Of a DNA stretch of 46,630 nt, positions 13,729-28,389 are shown in pieces. The translations under genes and the position numbers were made by a program. Source of the DNA: Nostoc sp. 106C (GTDB lineage Bacteria; Cyanobacteriota; Cyanobacteriia; Cyanobacteriales; Nostocaceae); contig NZ_MTAW01000046.1 in assembly GCF_002154725.1 (NCBI RefSeq), forward strand, positions 1-46,630. The letters run 5' to 3'. Each line of letters begins with the position of its first letter. Within the stretch, counting starts at the first letter, position 1. Under the pieces are notes generated by a model. The model ran no database searches, was not told where the DNA came from, and was given only the letters and a program-made list of their open reading frames with translations.

Positions 13729-15195
13729 TCAAATCCAAGAATTAAACAACATCCGGAGTTTATAGCCGTTAGATGTCAGAGGTAAGCCCAAATAAATCGG
13801 CATCCAGAAGATAAAAGCTGCCAAAATCAGAAAAGCAATAGTAACACCGAATGCTCGTAGTTCCCGATAATAACTGCGAAGACATTGATCTACAAACCAA
13901 GCGATCGCTATAAATACAAACACTACAGCACATATATAGTGGTAAATAAAAACGCACCTAGTTACTTTTACCCAGGGCAATAAATTAGCGGCATAGTTTA
14001 ACACTATATACAAGGCAACCCAAGTATCGACAGAAAGATTTGCAGGTACAGACAAACGCTTATGCTTAATTATAGGAATCACCAATTTTGACAGTAGCAT
14101 TCCTACTAATAACAACATAGCAGCCATACCAGACCACCACAGAAAAGGATTACCCATTGCATGGACATCATAAATTACTTGTCCATCAGCAGCAGGTAAA
14201 TTAGGGCCCAGTACTGGTAAGGGATCGGTGAAACTATGAGCTGTTTGATAATAATAGGCCATTGGTCGAGTCATCAAAGGCCATTTGTACCAAGGAGCAC
14301 AGTAAGGATGAACTGTGGGACTATTACCACCCATATGCAGATGAAACTGCAAAATTTGTTGGTGTACTTCTATAAAACCGTATCTTGTATCTAGTTGCAG
14401 GTGAGGAATCCAAATCAGGCTGTAGATTAAAGCTGGGATAATTCCTAAATAAAACACCATCTGGAAAATATTTAGCTGAGTCAACTTTTGTAGCGGTGTC
14501 TCAACTTTAGCTATTCGTGGTTCCTGGAATGTCGCATCTTTGCTAGGACTAAGATAAGAATGTAACCAATGAACTAGCCAAGCTGTAATCCAAATTAAAT
14601 AAGTACCTAACAGAAACCATAAACCATTCCATTTAGTGCCAACTGATGCACCAAAACCAATACCAGCAGCAACTAACCATAAAGAACGCCGTTGATTTTG
14701 GTTATCTAATGCTAAAAATAAAAACCACTGCCCTAATAAACCAAAAATTACAATATAAATATTGCTGAGAGCATAGCGGGACTCAACGAGGAATAAACCA
14801 TCACAGGCTGTAAAAAATCCTGCAAGTAAAGCAAAGCTACGACGATGACTAATTTGATAGGCAATAGCAGCAACAACTAAAGGAATAAATGAGCCAGTAA
14901 AAGCATTTGCCCAACGATAACTCCAAGGAGATAGTAAAGAACCTACTAGTCCATTGATTGATTCTTGCCCAAAACTAAAATGGCTGCCAAGCCAAATACC
15001 AATACCAATAATATATTGACTCAATGGCGGATGAGCATTGAAAAATGGAGTATGGGTAAGATAGTTATTCCCAAATTTGGCAAAGTAAACTTCATCAAAT
15101 ACTAGGGTATTGAATCGATCAAGTCCCCAAAAACGCAAGGCGAGCGAGAAGAGGAATATAGCCGCCATCCCTATTCGGAACCAATTTTTAATCAT
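13729..15195 (-). CDS. PMT-family (GT39-like) membrane glycosyltransferase
   Basis: Integral membrane protein of 488 aa related to dolichyl-phosphate-mannose protein mannosyltransferases. The first helix (about 8-25) is followed by the catalytic acidic motif FDEVYFAKFGNNYL, with the Asp-Glu pair that defines the family. Next come HPPLSQYIIG, about ten further hydrophobic helices, and a periplasmic loop with HMGGNSPTVHPY and WPLMTRPMAYYY. It should transfer a sugar from a polyprenyl-phosphate donor to a protein or glycan on the periplasmic side. The acceptor is unknown. No Shine-Dalgarno is visible: the ATG at 15195 is itself the first unit of a 7-bp repeat. A second ATG at 15168 would remove nine residues, but the residues upstream of it look family-like. 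Confidence 0.88.
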   Translation of the reverse strand: MIKNWFRIGMAAIFLFSLALRFWGLDRFNTLVFDEVYFAKFGNNYLTHTPFFNAHPPLSQYIIGIGIWLGSHFSFGQESINGLVGSLLSPWSYRWANAFTGSFIPLVVAAIAYQISHRRSFALLAGFFTACDGLFLVESRYALSNIYIVIFGLLGQWFLFLALDNQNQRRSLWLVAAGIGFGASVGTKWNGLWFLLGTYLIWITAWLVHWLHSYLSPSKDATFQEPRIAKVETPLQKLTQLNIFQMVFYLGIIPALIYSLIWIPHLQLDTRYGFIEVHQQILQFHLHMGGNSPTVHPYCAPWYKWPLMTRPMAYYYQTAHSFTDPLPVLGPNLPAADGQVIYDVHAMGNPFLWWSGMAAMLLLVGMLLSKLVIPIIKHKRLSVPANLSVDTWVALYIVLNYAANLLPWVKVTRCVFIYHYICAVVFVFIAIAWFVDQCLRSYYRELRAFGVTIAFLILAAFIFWMPIYLGLPLTSNGYKLRMLFNSWI

Positions 15196-15262
15196 TAGTC
15201 ATTAGTCATTGATCATTGGTCATTAGTCATTGGTATTTGGTTATTTGTCATTGGTCATTAAT
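15193..15262. repeat. 7-bp tandem repeat (CATTAGT type), ten units
   Basis: Ten consecutive heptamers of the form CATTAGT/CATTGGT, two of them degenerate. The first CAT is the complement of the PMT start codon, so the repeat abuts and includes the translation start. Confidence 0.8.
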
Positions 15263-15312
15263 CATCTTATATATAGCGTTTACCAAGCCAGTGAGGTACA
15301 GAAAGAAGTAAT

Positions 15313-15404: not shown

Positions 15405-18400
15405 TTAATTAATCATTTGTTGTTGCCGAACTAATTCAACAACCATCGCCACCACTGCATCGGGATCAACTGGTTTGACTATATGTCTTTGAAAACCTGC
15501 TGCGATCGCTTTTTGCTGATTAATTTCTCCAGCATAAGCAGTTAAGGCTATGGCTGGAATAGATTTACCTTGTGGTGATGCTCGAATATTTTGTATTAGC
15601 ATATAGCCATCCATCTCAGGCATACCGATATCACTAATTAATAGGTCGGGAACTCTTTGGTTAAAAGCGTTGAGCGCCGCCACTCCCGATGGCACAGCTG
15701 TAACTGTTGCCTGTTGTTGTGTCAACACAAAGGTAAGAAAGTCGCGGGAATCTGGTTCGTCATCTACAACTAAAATGTGAATGCCGCTGAGATTTAACGA
15801 TGGGTGATTTGATGATGGTGGTAAAGCAGCTTGAGGAATAATATCCAAGAATAGAGGAATTTGCACTGTAAAAGTTGCACCCTGTCCTTCCCCAAGACTT
15901 TCCACCCCCACAGTACCGCCATGCAATTCCACGATCTGACGCACAATCGCTAGCCCCAATCCCAAACCACCAAATTGCCTGGTTGTGGAGCCGTCTTCTT
16001 GCTGGAAATGGTCAAATACATAGGCTAGAAATTCTGGACGAATGCCTTTACCTGTGTCTTTGACTTGAATTTGAGCGTTGCTACCAACAGATGTTAAGTG
16101 AACTTCAATTTTTCCCCCTGGTGGAGTAAATTTTACAGCGTTGGATAAAATATTCCAAACTACTTGCTGCAATCGAGTAGCATCCCCGATCGCACTGACC
16201 ATTGGGCTAATATTTGTGTATATTTCTAAAGACTTGGCTTCAGCAGCTAATTGCACAGTCTCCAGCGCCGAGTAAATTATCCTACCCAAATCTAGGGGCG
16301 TGGCATTTAATACCAGTTTGCCCTGGAGAATTCGCGAAACATCAAGTAAATCTTCAATCAGTTGTACTTGTAACTTAGCGTTGCGTTCGATGGTGGCGAA
16401 AGCCTTGGCCGTTTGTGTAGCGTTAAGGTTACCATTTTGCAACAACCTCGACCAGCCAAGAATCGGATTGAGAGGAGAGCGCAATTCGTGGGACAGAACG
16501 GCAAGGAACTCATCTTTGACTCGACTTGCCCGTTCGGCTTCTTCACGGGCGGCTCGTTCGCGTACAAGTAATTCTTCTCGATCTTGCTCGGCTTGTTTGC
16601 GATGGGTGATATCGCGAGCGACTGCATAAATCACGTTCTGTTCGGGGAAAGCAATACCATTCCACGCAATCCAGCGATAAGATCCAGATTTTGTTAGGTA
16701 GCGGTTTTCAAACCCGATCATTTCGATTCCCTGTGCCAGTTTTTGTGCTTCAACTATTGTTGCAGCTTGGTCATCAGGATGGACAAACTCAATGTATGGC
16801 TTTGCGGTCAATTCTGTTTCCGTCCAACCAAGGGTTTTTTCCCAAGCGGGATTCACCTGTGTGAAATAACCGTTGAGATTACCGATCGCCATCATATCTG
16901 TGGACAAGTTGAAAAAGCGATCGCGTTCTTCTGTAACTTGTGTGAGTTCGGTTAGATCCAGAATAAAGGCAATAACTTCTTGAGACTGATTGTAAGGTTC
17001 TTGAAGCAATGCCGCAGCAATTAAAATCGGAATTCGCCGCCCACTTTTGTGGAGATATACTTTCTCGTAAGGCGCACAACTTCCTTGGCTACTCAATTGT
17101 TCGACTGCTTTGGCATCTAAATCCGCAAATTCTGGTGGGGTGAGTTGGCTCCATTGCACTTGCCCAGACTGCATTTCTGCTAAAGAGTAGCCTACCAGGT
17201 TTAAGAGATAGTCATTGGCGTAGTGTAATCCACCAAAGCAATCGCCAAAAACGACACCAAATAAATTTGATTCCACCAATCGCCGCAACCGTCGTTCACT
17301 CTCGTGTTGGGCGGCTTCAATTTGCTTGCGATCGCTAATATCTTCGGCAACTCCAGCAATTCGATATGGTTGTCCATCCCGATCTCGAACTAAAAAACCG
17401 CGATCGCGTATCCACCGAATCGCACCATCAGGACGCAAGATGCGATATTCTTCCGTATGATTGCCTTTGGCCAGACATTGTGCGCCAGCCATCTGCACCT
17501 GTTCTCTATCTTCGGGGTGAATTGTTTCCATCCAACTACTTTTATCAGCATACAAGCTCTCACAGGAACGTCCCCAAATTTTCGCGTAGGCAGGGCTGAC
17601 ATAAAGCATCTGTTGCGCTTGCGGATCGGATAACCAGAAGACGCTTTCAATTGTGTCTGCCATTTGCTGAAATAGTTCTTGGCTCTGACGCAATGCTGCT
17701 TCTGCCTGCTGGCGATCGTGTAACGCCGCTTCTGCTTTCATCCTTAAGGCTTGTTCTTGCTTTTTTGCCGCTTGCCGCAGTTGAGATAATTTCAGATTGT
17801 TTTCTACACGCGCCAGTAATTCTCGTGCCGAAAACGGCTTAACTATATAATCATCCGCCCCAACCGCCAGTCCTTCAATCCGCGATTCTTCTCCAGCTCG
17901 TGCCGATAACAAAATAATGGGGATCTCTTGAGTTTTGGGATCGCTACGTAGCGATCGCAGAAATTCAAAGCCATCAATTCCTGGCATCATCACATCTGTT
18001 AATACCAAGTCTGGTGGATGCTCCTGAACTGCATTTGACGCCGCCTTGCCATTTGCGACCGTCTCAACTGTATAGTGAGAACTCAACAATCGCTTGACAT
18101 ATTCACGCATATCTGCATTATCATCAGCCAAGAGAATGCGAGATGTTTTGAGCAGAGGGGAATTTGAACCTCTTCTCTCTTCTGCTCCCCTGCTCCCTTG
18201 CCCCCCTGCTTCCTCTATCGATAGCCAAAGTTGGGCTGCTTCCACATCAGGAATTGAACTTAAAGTAATTGCTGCTAAGGTGCGACTGGCACGTAGTGAT
18301 TCCCTTGGTAAATGACTAGCTCCCGTGGGAATGGCGACGATAAAGCAACTGCCCGCTCCTAAAGCACTGGTAACGCTAACCGTGCCACCATGAAGTTCCA

Positions 18401-20108
18401 CAAATTCCTGCACGAGGGATAAGCCAATACCTGAGCCTTCAAAACTGCGTCCTTCGGCACCTTTTACTCGATGAAATCGCTTAAATAAATGGGTTATTTC
18501 CTCTTTTGGAATGCCAATGCCTGTATCTTCAACAATTAAATCAACGTAATTTTGAACATACTCTAATCGAACTGTAATTGTACCGGAGAATGTAAATTTA
18601 AAGGCATTTGATAGAAGATTAAAGACAATTTTTTCCCACATTTCGCGATCGACATAAATCGCTTCTGGTAAAGGTGGGCAATCAACAATCAGTTGGATTC
18701 CAGCCTGTTCTATTGTGGAGCGAAACACACTGGCAAGTTCAGCCGTAAACGTGGCTAAATCTGTTGGCTCATAGGCTGCCTGAATGCGTCCGGCTTCAAT
18801 GCGGGAAAAATCGAGCAAGGTGTTGACTAATTTCAGTAACCGCAGGGCATTGCGCTGCACAATTTCAATTCGTTCGCGTTGCACAGTAGGTAATGGATGT
18901 GCAGTATCAGATAAGGCATCTTCCGTTGGCCCCAACATCAACGTTAATGGCGTGCGGAATTCGTGGGAGACGTTACTGAAAAACTGAGTTTTGGCGCGAT
19001 CGAGTTCTGCGAGTGCTTCTGCCCGTAGCCGTTCTGCTTCGTAAGCGCGAGCATTGGCGATCGCAGTGGTAATCTGTCCGGCTACTAAATCCCAGAAGCC
19101 TTGATAATCATCGTCGAACTGGCGGCGCGGACTAATACCTGCAATCAAAAATCCGCTGAGTCGCGCCTGTCCGGGAGTGGTGAGGGGTAAGACAAAAGCG
19201 CAGTTTGGTGACTCTGGCCAAGCACCACCCGGTAAATCCCCAAACTTTGATTTCACTTCATGTACTAACTGACTTTTGCCTTCTTTAAGGACGGCAGAAA
19301 GTGACCAGCGATCGCCTATTTCCGATTCCATCTCAATTTCTTCAGGACTGGCTGGGGTTCCTGGGGCTAATCTGGTGGCGCTAACTAGTCGCGCCCGCCC
19401 GGTATCATCCAGCAAATACAGCAGCGCAAACGGCACATCGTAGGGGTTATTAGCTAACGTCTGGGCGGAAAGTTCACAAGCATCTTCGACGGTTTTTGCC
19501 TCGGCGGTATTAGCTGCAAGTTCTCGTAAAGTGTGCAGACGGCGATCGCCCAAAACGCGACGAGTTTCCTCGGTACAGGCGCAGAAGACCCCACCCACAC
19601 TTCCATCGTCTTGGGGAATGGGGCTGTAGGAAAAGGTAAAGTAGGTTTCTTCTGGATAGCCATTCCGCTGCATAACTAAGAGCAATTCCTCATTCCACGA
19701 AGAATGCCCTTTTTGCAGTACGGCTTCAGCTTGTGGTCCTAGGGTGTCCCAAATCTCCGCCCATACCTGGGAAGCTGGCTGACCTAGTGCTTGGGGATGG
19801 CGTTGACCCAAAACCGGAATGTAAGCATCGTTATAAAAATTGGTCATCGACTCTCCCCACCAAACAAACATGGGGTAGCGCGACCCTAACATAATGCGAA
19901 CCGCAGTTTTCAAGCTTTGCGGCCAAGTATCGGCAGCACCAACTGCGGTAGTTGACCAATCATGCGTTCGCGAAGCGTCTCCGAAGGAGTCTCGCATGAG
20001 CGCCCCCATCTCACCTCCGCCTGCCACAATTTCTTCACATCTCGTCAATTTTTGCTCAGTAACCACAATCTTTACTCCGCTTCTGAAAAGTATTTCATAA
20101 AACCTCAC
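15405..20108 (-). CDS. Hybrid sensor kinase/response regulator with two kinase cores
   Basis: Up to 1567 aa, cytoplasmic. Rough order: PAS-like 50-190; GAF 200-355; HisKA with His382 (VSHEFRTPL) and HATPase_c to about 605; receiver about 655-775 (LVLTDVMMPGIDG); three PAS domains between 800 and 1165; second HisKA (LSHELRSPLNP) and HATPase_c; C-terminal receiver (LLISDIGMPEMDG). The start is uncertain. The conserved GGGEMGALMR shows it lies upstream of residue 30; GTG at 20108 (used here) or GTG at 20066, which has GGAG about 9 nt before it, are candidates. Two in-frame insertions look repeat-derived: residues about 40-48 (DSFGDASRT, between ALMR and HDWS), and about 633-651 (QGSRGAEERRGSNSP, before the first receiver). 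It probably works as a multistep phosphorelay; signal and output are unknown. Confidence 0.9.
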   Translation of the reverse strand: MRFYEILFRSGVKIVVTEQKLTRCEEIVAGGGEMGALMRDSFGDASRTHDWSTTAVGAADTWPQSLKTAVRIMLGSRYPMFVWWGESMTNFYNDAYIPVLGQRHPQALGQPASQVWAEIWDTLGPQAEAVLQKGHSSWNEELLLVMQRNGYPEETYFTFSYSPIPQDDGSVGGVFCACTEETRRVLGDRRLHTLRELAANTAEAKTVEDACELSAQTLANNPYDVPFALLYLLDDTGRARLVSATRLAPGTPASPEEIEMESEIGDRWSLSAVLKEGKSQLVHEVKSKFGDLPGGAWPESPNCAFVLPLTTPGQARLSGFLIAGISPRRQFDDDYQGFWDLVAGQITTAIANARAYEAERLRAEALAELDRAKTQFFSNVSHEFRTPLTLMLGPTEDALSDTAHPLPTVQRERIEIVQRNALRLLKLVNTLLDFSRIEAGRIQAAYEPTDLATFTAELASVFRSTIEQAGIQLIVDCPPLPEAIYVDREMWEKIVFNLLSNAFKFTFSGTITVRLEYVQNYVDLIVEDTGIGIPKEEITHLFKRFHRVKGAEGRSFEGSGIGLSLVQEFVELHGGTVSVTSALGAGSCFIVAIPTGASHLPRESLRASRTLAAITLSSIPDVEAAQLWLSIEEAGGQGSRGAEERRGSNSPLLKTSRILLADDNADMREYVKRLLSSHYTVETVANGKAASNAVQEHPPDLVLTDVMMPGIDGFEFLRSLRSDPKTQEIPIILLSARAGEESRIEGLAVGADDYIVKPFSARELLARVENNLKLSQLRQAAKKQEQALRMKAEAALHDRQQAEAALRQSQELFQQMADTIESVFWLSDPQAQQMLYVSPAYAKIWGRSCESLYADKSSWMETIHPEDREQVQMAGAQCLAKGNHTEEYRILRPDGAIRWIRDRGFLVRDRDGQPYRIAGVAEDISDRKQIEAAQHESERRLRRLVESNLFGVVFGDCFGGLHYANDYLLNLVGYSLAEMQSGQVQWSQLTPPEFADLDAKAVEQLSSQGSCAPYEKVYLHKSGRRIPILIAAALLQEPYNQSQEVIAFILDLTELTQVTEERDRFFNLSTDMMAIGNLNGYFTQVNPAWEKTLGWTETELTAKPYIEFVHPDDQAATIVEAQKLAQGIEMIGFENRYLTKSGSYRWIAWNGIAFPEQNVIYAVARDITHRKQAEQDREELLVRERAAREEAERASRVKDEFLAVLSHELRSPLNPILGWSRLLQNGNLNATQTAKAFATIERNAKLQVQLIEDLLDVSRILQGKLVLNATPLDLGRIIYSALETVQLAAEAKSLEIYTNISPMVSAIGDATRLQQVVWNILSNAVKFTPPGGKIEVHLTSVGSNAQIQVKDTGKGIRPEFLAYVFDHFQQEDGSTTRQFGGLGLGLAIVRQIVELHGGTVGVESLGEGQGATFTVQIPLFLDIIPQAALPPSSNHPSLNLSGIHILVVDDEPDSRDFLTFVLTQQQATVTAVPSGVAALNAFNQRVPDLLISDIGMPEMDGYMLIQNIRASPQGKSIPAIALTAYAGEINQQKAIAAGFQRHIVKPVDPDAVVAMVVELVRQQQMIN
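18150..18214. repeat. In-frame copy of a dispersed GGGGAGCAG-type repeat inside the hybrid kinase
   Basis: The tract GGGGAATTTGAACC...TGCTCCCCTGCTCC encodes QGSRGAEERRGSNSP on the minus strand. It aligns over about 55 bp, with about 7 differences by eye, to 21643-21697 in the PEP synthase gene, and in the same reading frame. It sits in the linker between the HATPase and receiver domains. Confidence 0.8.
19965..19997. repeat. In-frame palindromic repeat near the hybrid kinase N-terminus
   Basis: GTTCGCGAAGCG and TCTCCGAAGGAG-TCTCGC form adjacent short inverted repeats that match a repeat at about 8196-8218. On the coding strand it gives RDSFGDASR, splitting the conserved GALMR / HDWS junction without shifting the frame. 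Confidence 0.7.
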
Positions 20109-20174
20109 CTTTAGAGGCAGGAGGAAACGAATACGGGTGCTTGAGTGTGCGAATTTGCTTCATTGGTAGAGGGG

Positions 20175-20227
20175 AGGGGTTGCCCGTCGATTCTCCCAGA
20201 AATTAATTCTGGGGGAAGTCAACCCCT
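20175..20227 (-). terminator. Two-tier hairpin downstream of PEP synthase
   Basis: An outer stem AGGGGTTG/CAACCCCT (8 bp, perfect) encloses an inner stem CTCCCAGAA/TTCTGGGGG with an ATTAA loop. It lies about 95 nt after the ppsA stop on the same strand. No T-run follows, so it may be a processing or termination structure, or another interspersed palindrome. Confidence 0.45.
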
Positions 20228-20319
20228 ATAGATAATTCAAAATGCCAAATCAATCATATCCATAATGATTGTTAGGTAAACTTACTTTCCATGTCTATAT
20301 ATCTCCAGAAAGAATGAAT

Positions 20320-22806
20320 TTAAGCCTGTTGATTCTCAACTTTTGCTACATTTAACATTGTTTTTAGAACTGAATCAGGATTCAAACTAATAGAATCAAT
20401 TCCCTGTTCTACCAAGAATTGGGCAAATTCTGGATAATCGCTAGGTGCTTGCCCGCAAATCCCAATTTTGCGATTGTTTTGTTTTGCAGCTTGGATTGCC
20501 ATTTTGACCATGCGTTTTACACCTTGACTGCGTTCATCAAATAATCGCGCCACCAATGCTGAATCTCTATCTAAGCCTAGTGTTAGCTGAGTTAGATCGT
20601 TAGAACCAATAGAAAATCCATCAAAAACCTCAGCAAACTCTTCAGCCATAATTACATTGTTGGGCAACTCGCACATGACATACACTTGCAAGTTATTCAC
20701 ACCCTGATGTAAACCATTCTTGGCCATTTCTGCTAATACTAGACGCCCTTCATCAGGAGTGCGACAAAAGGGAATCATCGGGATGACATTAGTTAAACCC
20801 ATTTCTTCGCGTACCCGTTTGATGGCATAACATTCCAAAGCAAAAGCTTCTCTATAACCTGGATCGTAGTAGCGTGCTGCCCCTCGCCAGCCCAGCATCG
20901 GGTTTTCTTCATGGGGTTCAAACTGTTGACCACCTAAAAGATTGGCATATTCATTACTTTTAAAATCCGACATCCGCACAACCACTGGTTTGGGATAAAA
21001 TGCCGCAGCAATTCTACCGATCCCTTGAGCTAATCTATCTACAAAATACTGGGTTTTATCTTCATATAGTGCGGTAATTTCTGCAATTTTAGCTTTGACA
21101 AATTCATCTTTTAAATTGTCATAGTGAATTAACGCCATTGGATGAATTTGGATTTGGTTGGCGATAATAAATTCTGTACGCGCTAAACCCACCCCATCAT
21201 TAGGAATAGCAGATAAACTAAATGCTTCTTGGGGATTACCCACATTCATTAAAATTTGCGTGCGGGTGCGGGGTAAGTTTTCTAGATGAACTTCTTGGAC
21301 TTCAAAAGGTAATAAACCTGGATAAACTCGTCCTTCTTCTCCTTCCGCACAAGAAATCGTCACCTCTTGACCAGTTTTTAAGACTGCCGTAGCATTGCCA
21401 CAACCAACGATCGCAGGTACACCTAATTCTCGCGCAATAATCGCTGCGTGGCAGGTGCGACCCCCAGAGTTAGTAATAATTGCACTGGCCCGTTTCATAA
21501 TCGGTTCCCAGTCAGGGTCAGTTCTATCTGTTACCAAAACTTCCCCTGGCTGAAACTGGTCGATTTTACTCACATCTAAAATTAGGCGTACTTTCCCTTG
21601 ACTAATCGCTTCACCAATCGCGCGGCCTGTCACAAGAGGCTGGGGGGAATTTGAAACTCTTTTCTCCTCTGCTCCTCTGCTCCCCTGCTCCTCTGCTTTC
21701 CCTAAGAGGCGATAACTCCGCAGCACATTTCCCCGTTTCTGCGACTGGACTGTTTCTGGACGTGCTTGGACAACAAACAGTTGATTGGTAATCCCATCTT
21801 TTGCCCATTCAATGTCCATTGGAGTGTAATGACCGTGAACTTGAGAATAATGATCTTCAATTACACAAGCCCAACGCGCTAGTTGTAAAATCTCGTCATC
21901 GGTTAGGACAAATTTAGCTCTTTCTTCGGTAGGAACTAGAATATTTTTGGTAAATTTTGAGCCGTCATCATAAACCATTTTTAATTCTTTGCTGCCCAAT
22001 TTTTTATCGACAATAGGGCTAAAACCTGCTTTTAAAGTCGGTTTAAAAACATAGTATTCATCTGGGTTAACCGTTCCCTGAACGACATTTTCGCCTAAAC
22101 CGTAAGCAGCAGAAATTAATGCCGCATCCTTAAAACCAGTTTCCGTTTCAATTGAGAACATTACCCCAGAAGATGCCAAATCAGAACGCACCATTTTTTG
22201 CACACCCACAGCTAGGGCAATACTAAAGTGGTCAAATCCCTTAGTATGACGATACGAAATGGCGCGATCGGTAAATAATGAAGCAAAACATTTATGACAA
22301 GCGCCTAAAACTCCTGCAACACCCACAACGTTGAGGTAAGTTTCCTGCTGTCCAGCAAAACTAGCATCAGGGAGGTCTTCCGCAGTGGCGCTAGAACGGA
22401 CGGCGACATCTGTATCTGCATGGTATGGCTCACATAAACTTGTATATGCTGTAGCGATCGCCTGGCGCAGTTCCGCGGGAAATGGTGTATGCATCAGTAG
22501 CGATCGCGCTTTTTTTCCTCGTTCCTGTAAATTTTTTACATCCTCAACATCTAGGTCAGAAAATAGTTCCCTTAGCTTTGTTTCTAACCCAGCAGACTCA
22601 ATAAAATAACGATAAGCATAAGCAGTAGTAGCAAACCCAGTCGGAACGTTAACGCCTTTGGGTGTCAACTGTTGAATCATTTCCCCTAGTGATGCATTTT
22701 TCCCCCCTACTGAGGGAATATCCGCAATACCCACCTCATCAAACCAAAGGATCAGCGATCGCTCTTTGGTATCAACAGACAAAGTATTTTTAGCTACTGT
22801 TACCAT
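20320..22806 (-). CDS. ppsA: Phosphoenolpyruvate synthase
   Basis: Pyruvate, water dikinase: pyruvate + ATP + H2O to PEP + AMP + Pi, a gluconeogenic enzyme in the cytoplasm. It has 828 aa from the ATG at 22806, chosen because GAGGT stands 7 nt upstream. The PPDK_N ATP-binding domain (SVGGKNASLGEM, SSATAEDLPDASFAGQQ) covers about 20-350. The swivelling phospho-His domain carries His453 in GGRTCHAAIIAREL. The PEP/pyruvate-binding barrel includes GSNDLTQLTLGLDRDS and ICGQAPSDYPEF. All landmark motifs are present. Residues about 368-388 (EEQGSRGAEEKRVSNSPQ) are absent from E. coli PpsA and lie in the linker before the swivelling domain; they are encoded by a dispersed repeat. The neighbours give no operon partner. 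Confidence 0.95.
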   Translation of the reverse strand: MVTVAKNTLSVDTKERSLILWFDEVGIADIPSVGGKNASLGEMIQQLTPKGVNVPTGFATTAYAYRYFIESAGLETKLRELFSDLDVEDVKNLQERGKKARSLLMHTPFPAELRQAIATAYTSLCEPYHADTDVAVRSSATAEDLPDASFAGQQETYLNVVGVAGVLGACHKCFASLFTDRAISYRHTKGFDHFSIALAVGVQKMVRSDLASSGVMFSIETETGFKDAALISAAYGLGENVVQGTVNPDEYYVFKPTLKAGFSPIVDKKLGSKELKMVYDDGSKFTKNILVPTEERAKFVLTDDEILQLARWACVIEDHYSQVHGHYTPMDIEWAKDGITNQLFVVQARPETVQSQKRGNVLRSYRLLGKAEEQGSRGAEEKRVSNSPQPLVTGRAIGEAISQGKVRLILDVSKIDQFQPGEVLVTDRTDPDWEPIMKRASAIITNSGGRTCHAAIIARELGVPAIVGCGNATAVLKTGQEVTISCAEGEEGRVYPGLLPFEVQEVHLENLPRTRTQILMNVGNPQEAFSLSAIPNDGVGLARTEFIIANQIQIHPMALIHYDNLKDEFVKAKIAEITALYEDKTQYFVDRLAQGIGRIAAAFYPKPVVVRMSDFKSNEYANLLGGQQFEPHEENPMLGWRGAARYYDPGYREAFALECYAIKRVREEMGLTNVIPMIPFCRTPDEGRLVLAEMAKNGLHQGVNNLQVYVMCELPNNVIMAEEFAEVFDGFSIGSNDLTQLTLGLDRDSALVARLFDERSQGVKRMVKMAIQAAKQNNRKIGICGQAPSDYPEFAQFLVEQGIDSISLNPDSVLKTMLNVAKVENQQA
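21643..21705. repeat. In-frame copy of the GGGGAGCAG-type repeat inside ppsA
   Basis: GGGGAATTTGAAACTC followed by TGCTCC units. It is the second copy of the repeat at 18150-18214, in the same orientation and frame, encoding QGSRGAEEKRVSNSP in an interdomain linker. Confidence 0.8.
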
Positions 22807-23511: not shown

Positions 23512-23572
23512 AAAATTTTGAGTAGTTAATCCCCAATACGGTTCAGTTAAGAAAATTCTTCTGTGAAGGCAA

Positions 23573-23600
23573 GGGAACAGGGAACAGGGAACGGGGAACA
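23573..23600. repeat. GGGAACA heptamer tandem repeat
   Basis: Four units GGGAACA, GGGAACA, GGGAACG, GGGAACA in the convergent intergenic region. The rest of 23512-23871 holds no gene apart from the hairpin at 23735-23788. Confidence 0.75.
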
Positions 23601-23734
23601 GAGAGAGAAAAAACAGGCTTATCTGAACTGTATTGAGTTAATCCCAGTCTGCGATCGCAAGTTTAAAGATGCGTGACAATTCGTTAACATTTTGGCTAAC
23701 GAGAATCGCTGAGAATGCGAATCAGCAAAAAAGG

Positions 23735-28022: not shown

Positions 28023-28389
28023 CTTTTCGGGGATTGCTTGGCTGGCAATGAGTTTTTATAATTAGGCGATCGCACCATACAAAAACGAACCTTGAAGCGG
28101 CTTTTCTCAACTCAATAGTGGCTTTTCTCAACTCAATAGTGGCTTTCCTCAACTCAATAGCGGCTTTCCTCAACTCAATAGCGGCTTTCCTCAACTCAAT
28201 AGCGGCTTTCCTCAACTCAATAGCGGCTTTCCTCAACTCAATAGTGGCTTTTCTCAATTCAATAGCGGCTTTCCTTAACTCAATAGTGGCTTTCCTCAAC
28301 TCAATAGTGGCTTTCCTTAACTCAATAGTGGCTTCCGCAACCTCTGCATCTAATCTGAAAAAATGGCATCGAAAAGCGATCGCTACCAA
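27988..28389 (-). CDS. Possible heptad-repeat protein (doubtful)
   Basis: An open frame of 133 aa made of an N-terminal flank (FRLDAEVAEA), eleven copies of the heptapeptide IELRKA(A/T) and a 33-residue tail. A perfect heptad with I and L spaced as in a coiled coil could form a long amphipathic helix. Against coding: the only start is TTG with no proper Shine-Dalgarno, and the plus strand is open through the array as well. Three of the four variable sites in the array are synonymous, but third positions of the two strands coincide, so this does not choose a strand. I keep it as a low-confidence call. Confidence 0.25.
   Translation of the reverse strand: MVAIAFRCHFFRLDAEVAEATIELRKATIELRKATIELRKAAIELRKATIELRKAAIELRKAAIELRKAAIELRKAAIELRKATIELRKATIELRKAASRFVFVWCDRLIIKTHCQPSNPRKERSLFDAIFHD
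28097..28327. repeat. 21-bp tandem repeat, 11 units
   Basis: Eleven uninterrupted units of consensus GCGGCTTTCCTCAACTCAATA with exactly 21-bp period, followed by a degenerate twelfth start. Only four sites vary: unit positions 2, 9, 12 and 15, all C/T. There are no spacers, so it is not a CRISPR. Confidence 0.95.
28343..28384. repeat. Right flanking direct repeat of the minisatellite
   Basis: This is the second copy of the 27981-28022 sequence, ending in the same GATCGCT. Confidence 0.7.

Follow-up and report, generated by a model that had tools for sequence, protein, structure and literature searches.

Small repeats dispersed through cyanobacterial genomes appear to enter genes, where a copy survives if it leaves the frame intact, adds a hydrophilic stretch of peptide and sits in a tolerant loop, and where the same slots are refilled by other repeats; we put the probability of this explanation, the best that we have, at roughly 70%. 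The case was studied in a 46,630-bp stretch of the Nostoc sp. 106C genome (contig NZ_MTAW01000046.1), called the window below, for which a preliminary description had proposed that one dispersed repeat is inserted in the same frame in two unrelated genes. The features concerned are as follows (G and L numbers in the text are our handles for genomes and loci).

15405..20108, minus strand: host gene A, a hybrid histidine kinase of 1567 aa (ORF list, Pfam)
18150..18217, minus strand: copy A, composite repeat (octad array, core, short inverted-octad arm), in-frame in the hybrid kinase, residues ~631-651
18150-18160, minus strand: short inverted-octad arm of copy A, CCCCTCTGCTC
18157..18180, minus strand: 24-bp core of copy A, AGAGAGAAGAGGTTCAAATTCCCC
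18182..18214, minus strand: octad (8-bp) tandem array of copy A (TRF periods 8 and 16)
20320..22803, minus strand: host gene B, phosphoenolpyruvate synthase ppsA, start taken at 22803 (ORF list, Pfam, nearest solved structure 2ols)
21640..21704, minus strand: copy B, composite repeat, in-frame in ppsA, residues 368-388
21644..21667, minus strand: 24-bp core of copy B, GGAGAAAAGAGTTTCAAATTCCCC
21664..21697, minus strand: octad tandem array of copy B, 4.2 units (TRF)

The two copies are clearly related. Positions 18157-18217 (copy A) and 21644-21704 (copy B), both on the minus strand, align without gaps with 52 of 61 positions identical, and BLAST reports 55 bp at 87% identity, in agreement with the shared ~55 bp and ~7 mismatches of the initial estimate. 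When copy A was compared with 67-bp segments taken from the window every 10 bp on both strands, none of the 9,195 others scored above 28, while copy B scored 77. The copies measure about 61-68 bp, with arms of variable length. A covariance model gives 61 bits to copy A (18133-18204) and 67 bits to copy B, and the window copies are the top hits when the genus is searched with it, both having been used to train it. Of the 26 loci from this genus-wide model search roughly half lie inside long frames; they were kept out of the counts given here. Translation in the host frame yields QGSRGAEE[KR]R.SNSP in the kinase copy and the ppsA copy alike, just as the shared peptide had been read before.

Both copies had also been placed in interdomain linkers, and Pfam indeed puts each of them between domains; compared with shorter homologues, both are extra segments. 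The kinase has GAF, PAS, two HisKA, two HATPase_c and two response-regulator domains, and its insert immediately precedes the response-regulator (receiver) domain that starts at residue 658. The ppsA product is made of PPDK_N, a mobile domain and PEP-utilizers_C, its insert falling between PPDK_N (end 358) and the mobile domain (start 417); the closest named relatives of this ppsA are from Nostoc. At the position of this insert there is a 14-residue gap in 2ols, the phosphoenolpyruvate synthase that is the nearest solved enzyme, and an AlphaFold model built on 35 sequences gives a pLDDT <50 to residues 369-385, which are flanked by two strands; the PpsA insert is predicted to be disordered.

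The element consists of an octanucleotide array (GGGGAGCA)n, followed by a 24-bp core ending in TTCAAATTCCCC and sometimes by an inverted octad arm, which is longer in fuller copies, e.g. those of G082 ppsA2, G235 and G304. A complete element is thus composed of a purine-rich octad array, a core of ~24 bp and an inverted pyrimidine-rich array. Because 8 and 3 share no factor, the octad peptide does not depend on the frame: whichever of the three frames of its strand is read, (GGGGAGCA)n encodes GEQGSRGA, and no stop occurs in any of the six. The shared QGSRGAEE is therefore uninformative on frame, and the aperiodic core alone is informative. In consequence, the idea of a common frame has to be divided into two parts: for the octads it is automatic in any frame, while for the core it reflects a real preference. 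A hairpin was considered as a conserved feature of the element and dropped, as five of six single folds were no stronger than shuffles; RNAalifold gave just 4 pairs, and an Rfam scan of the window at gathering scores returned no match.

The core is locked to one frame in the genic copies that we examined. Altogether 44 sites were assembled: the first 10 listed from each of G304, G373 and G385, three genomes of one genus in another family (30 of 112 core matches), two further sites, eight hand-chosen ones from other genomes (five of them internal) and four that were already known. A site was called internal if the open frame, measured stop-to-stop, extended at least 100 aa upstream and at least 70 downstream, a threshold set after a first look; the genes are putative ones, taken from open frames, and broken genes escape the stop-to-stop criterion. 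By this measure 18 sites are internal, 11 lie at ORF edges and 15 belong to neither class. All 18 internal copies have the core in one strand and frame, as opposed to 3 of the 11 edge copies (Fisher 4e-5), and the core peptides are (G/A)EE..SNSP-like, e.g. GAEENIDSNSP, which gives the hydrophilic type GEQGSRGAEE..SNSP. The difference persists when an octad-like arm is required (16/16 internal vs 2/10 edge copies in frame, 3e-5), with strict octads (10/10 vs 1/4, 0.01), when the window pair is left out (16/16 vs 3/11, 7e-5) and in the richest genus alone (10/10 vs 2/10, 7e-4).

It needs to be added that many genic copies reside in histidine kinases, so that the independent protein sites, collapsed by hand, number just 7-8; counted in this way, the core is in frame at 8/8 sites (p 0.003), or at 7/7 without L432 (p 0.004). 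These sites are a HATPase_c loop, the kinase-receiver linker, a GAF loop, a PAS-HisKA linker, the linkers of aspartokinase and PpsA, one Pfam-less protein and L432. Neither L432 nor, under a loose regex, L434 carries an octad arm, and the two may be something other than the octad-core element. In internal copies, between 2 and 5 of the six element frames are stop-free. Outside the rich genus many matches to the pattern used for the search differ, 27 of the other first-listed loci having no octad arm, and these loci provide a control: their 10 internal matches (5 protein groups) lie in five different frames, and the method therefore does not favour the octad-core frame.

Genic copies are found between domains or, inside domains, at loop-like places. 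Some hosts have the element within a Pfam domain or at its end, where it presumably sits in a loop: LdpA, a P-type ATPase, a PNKP-type protein and a GH31 glycosidase. Among the matches found in the window's own genome (8.66 Mb) there are 26 distinct octad places, 12 of them inside open frames (>=70 aa on each side). Two of those 12 are two-armed and G-first (one was tagged C-coding by base count in the script and is counted here as G-first), and in the remaining 10, some of which carry a short second arm, the coding strand is always the G-rich one. The octad peptide has a GRAVY of -1.3 to -1.5 when read from the G-strand vs +0.6 to +0.95, with cysteines, from the C-strand, and the orientation of the octads fits a peptide-level filter, the numbers being small. 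For GGGGACT heptads the strands differ little, and in the bulk sample, G-rich heptad arrays within genes point both ways. Further ORFs of this genome carrying in-frame octads are L004, L006, L008, L009, L017, L046, L464 and L468; within the L004-L046 set Pfam recognises a PNKP-type protein, NB-ARC, pyruvate:ferredoxin oxidoreductase, a GH1-RmlD fusion and a GH31 glycosidase, with no match for L017.

A general enrichment of repeats in genes was also considered and rejected. The fraction inside genes is 12/26 for octads and, in 846,630 bp sampled, 19/194 for 7/14/21-bp arrays and 5/15 for 8/16-bp arrays, all below the 76% that crude gene models cover. Being stop-free in all frames fails as the sole predictor of a genic position for heptads, since 6 of 45 heptad arrays of this kind are inside genes. 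Other arrays occur in the window itself. Near the host genes there are heptad arrays of TTAGTCA (15188-15265, with stops in all frames) and AGGGAAC (23572-23601), and a tandem array with a 21-bp period (GGCTTTCCTCAACTCAATAGT, 11.6 copies) at 28099-28341 lies outside the listed ORFs and has no Rfam match.

At one and the same site, one repeat family is replaced by another in relatives. The PpsA linker of eight genomes of the genus holds octads in G000, GGGGACT heptads in G002, G003, G004, G005 and G007, and neither in G001 and G006. A linker, with this repeat, other repeats or none, is present in all 87 PpsA homologues parsed, with a length of 20-59 residues (and 8 in one incomplete record, L314); of the suggestion that the repeat creates protein linkers, the added segment thus stands, while the creation of the linker does not. 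Six crude regex classes describe 37 of the 87 homologues as repeat-bearing and leave 50 with no recognised repeat, with the reservations that a single octad is present in L233, that L092 is classed as "none" in spite of its CCCTAAT heptads, that L176 is probably misassigned and that L314 is incomplete. On a PpsA1 tree of 73 proteins (FastTree, linker columns removed, no shuffled control; one incomplete record, paralogues and distant rows excluded) there are at least 22 class changes, 13 of them among the 30 repeat-bearing rows, and the sister rows L225 and L227 carry different repeat families. None of the listed full-length PpsA1 matches contains an internal stop.

Similar exchanges are seen in other proteins. 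The kinase linker of relatives (35 of 47 loci parsed) holds octads, 9-bp arrays, heptads or octads into which a palindrome is nested. LdpA has octads in G006 vs GAGACAAG in G000, aspartokinase has octads in G235 vs a GGGACAAG-type first arm and an octad-like second arm in G004, and the P-type ATPase (orthology by peptide match) has octads in G000 vs TCCAAAA heptads in G005. In two genomes, G005 and G000, the slots are filled in keeping with the repeats that the genome itself contains. In 400 kb of G005 there are 38 overlapping matches to GGGGACT arrays, in 447 kb of G000 there is none, and these arrays are present in both ppsA1 and ppsA2 of G005 and in neither of the two genes of G000. The kinase palindrome GTAGAGACGCGATTAATCGCGTCTCTAC (L198 in G005, L199 in G004), which is in frame within octads, has 26 strand-wise matches in the 400 kb of G005 and none in the 447-kb sample of G000. 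Another palindrome, GTCGCAAGGAGGGAAACCCTCC, is nested in-frame in the octad array of G082 ppsA2 (L315); neither this one nor GTAGACGCGAAGCGGCTTCCCG, from the kinase linkers of G002 and G003, has a match in the G000 or G005 samples, their source genomes lying outside these samples.

The collection of ppsA genes contained an unrelated insert as well. In L471 (G012:C1:4318400-4322900) and L472 (G061), which belong to other genera of the family, ppsA1 is interrupted at the conserved TxH of its mobile domain, between GGRT and CHAAI, by an intein-like insert of 394 residues that starts with CFDGETKILTN and ends with VCN before C. It was read directly in these two genomes; elsewhere, matches broken at 450-452 in frames of 1208-1266 aa suggest its presence in G027, G033, G083, G084, G102, G106, G116, G122 and perhaps G099. 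At G019:C1:1535999-1538143, the ppsA match is surrounded by an open frame of 14105 residues, perhaps a masked (N) stretch.

Repeated use of the same sites raises the question of whether the inserts are of any use to the host. The preliminary description had spoken of a repeat tolerated or even selected; tolerance fits our data, and these are explained by a filter against stopped, hydrophobic and cysteine-bearing frames, so that positive selection need not be assumed. One could argue that the repeats are kept since the length or flexibility of the linker tunes the swinging phosphohistidine domain or the kinase-to-receiver transfer, and the reuse of sites, the preserved frame and hydrophilicity and the often modular nature of the hosts would agree with it. 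However, a purely permissive site makes the identical prediction, the linkers vary freely within their 20-59 residues and more than half of the relatives (50/87) do without a recognised repeat, which makes this adaptive supply of linkers unlikely in our judgement; the inserted peptide is probably neutral or nearly so. Just as unlikely seems the more specific idea that the octad-core element is a protein-coding mobile repeat whose core is kept, as a property of the element itself, in a harmless hydrophilic frame, its translatability contributing to its survival, and that repeats compete for interchangeable linker slots in filamentous cyanobacteria.

The distribution of the copies bears on the question of whether DNA came in from elsewhere. 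The two window sites are the only places in their genome with the exact tail AGAGNTTCAAATTCCCC, and at 2 mismatches it has 6 further places vs 4 for a reversed control, which is near chance. Among 217 family genomes the exact tail is found three times, namely in the window pair and in the ppsA2 linker of another genus, i.e. the equivalent linker in a paralogous gene. At up to 3 mismatches over 29 positions the tail is present in 5 of 388 genomes of the order, and a pattern derived from those order-wide matches is found in 61 of the 388; G304, G373 and G385 have 47, 25 and 40 pattern matches, respectively, as compared with 0 for the reversed pattern there. In L401, from a different family of the order, the element occupies the kinase-receiver junction, as it does in the window kinase. 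With copies in other genera and another family, the search of the genome and its relatives bears out the view that the repeat is dispersed and not confined to two loci. From this distribution we infer that the element is mobile; comparison by eye of G000 with G006 and others gave no clean empty-site pair or target duplication. A possible relic in the ppsA2 of the window's own genome (KAEENTDNSSP, L179) looked plausible by eye and was set aside, as the locus gave no hit in the model search at E 0.01.

A second alternative assumes no incoming DNA at all, the low-complexity linkers being extended in place as G-rich codons slip during replication. The arms are surely changed by slippage, array lengths vary between close relatives and the numbers of units are small, but an aperiodic 24-bp core common to unrelated genes across genera and another family already contradicts this origin for the octad-core element, and several of the linker units are families dispersed over the genome; we therefore regard slippage as the origin of the inserts as rather improbable. 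The least probable alternative is that one window copy was made from the other by gene conversion over 3.5 kb and is private to the strain, for although the kinase and ppsA genes adjoin, the exact tail is restricted to these two places in its own genome and the close relative G006 lacks both copies, the ppsA2 copy of the other genus matches copy B better than kinase copy A does (30/31 vs 28/31), and octads after a TAGGGAAAGCAG start are found also in ppsA1 of two other genera (L225, L233).

The explanation that we prefer, entry of small dispersed repeats into genes followed by a filter, can be outlined in a few steps. Repeats of the octad-core and several other families would spread through filamentous cyanobacterial genomes, occasionally into genes, and insertions would arise in all frames and places. 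Selection would then purge those that break the frame, add a stop or encode a hydrophobic or cysteine-bearing peptide, and survivors would build up at few tolerant sites, where later copying or slippage may swap the arrays. The suggested rule of survival is that stop-free units of 7 or 8 bases give one peptide in any frame of a strand, and that the hydrophilic strand is kept. If this is right, it is the turnover of repeats, and not point mutation, that rewrites interdomain linkers and loops in sensor kinases and central enzymes of a large group of cyanobacteria, and proteins would change there by a fast route that has been little described to date. One enzyme would then be available in natural sets that differ in the linker, which makes the importance of linker sequence directly testable.

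As to previously known repeats, we found no report of refilled linker slots or of a frame-locked octad-core element in the open-licence literature, which does not prove that none exists. Short tandemly repeated repetitive sequences (STRR) have a heptanucleotide unit; the octad-core unit has 8 bases rather than 7 according to TRF, while the mode is alike. MITEs are marked by terminal inverted repeats and a target-site duplication; some octad-core copies have inverted octad arms, which may or may not correspond to the former, and no clean empty site turned up in which to look for the latter. The SDRs of Nostoc punctiforme (Elhai et al. 2008) are reportedly small and dispersed, often lie within tandem repeats and are nested in each other, and the octad-core element, being small, dispersed and tandem-embedded, would resemble them in these respects. 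The G-rich heptads of Nostoc and Xanthomonas described by Rehm et al. 2015 are 68% intergenic in PCC 7120 and under-represented in genes, though some do occur within Nostoc genes (PMC4692102). Their GGGGACT unit matches the PpsA-linker arrays of relatives, whereas the octad-core element has an 8-base unit and an aperiodic core, and the words "linker", "in-frame" and "octameric" are absent from the main text of the paper (PMC4692102). Heptads of the unit TAACTGA, which have a stop in each of the three forward frames, are described elsewhere as chiefly intergenic (PMC4679880).

Intragenic REPs of the GTAG/CGTC type were also compared. According to the portion of the study available (PMC3733652), they are tagged palindromes, the GTAG type being associated with transposase genes, and they occur in many proteins, cyanobacterial families included, where flexible linkers or loops were suggested. 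The octad-core element differs in that a 32-sequence alignment, inspected by eye, has no terminal GTAG or CGTC tag; in the kinase linkers of G004 and G005, the octads enclose a palindrome beginning with GTAG.

A further parallel is provided by the RPEs of Rickettsia (Ogata et al. 2000, 2002), palindromes of 105-150 bp that are intergenic as well as in-frame in unrelated genes, with an open frame; the one host enzyme for which a test is mentioned, gmk, was active with altered substrate affinity, as stated in the available sections of two reviews (PMC2229807, PMC10969869). Octad-core copies are likewise found both outside genes and in unrelated genes (18 of the 44 sites being internal, 11 at edges and 15 neither), and the genic ones keep their frame, 18/18. 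They differ from RPEs in being a short core with octad arms in cyanobacteria instead of a stable stem-loop of 105-150 bp, and in the refilling of their sites by unrelated families, of which those sections of the RPE reviews contain no description (PMC2229807, PMC10969869). In-frame small repeats as such are thus known, while the frame lock of the core and the turnover of the slots appear to be new.
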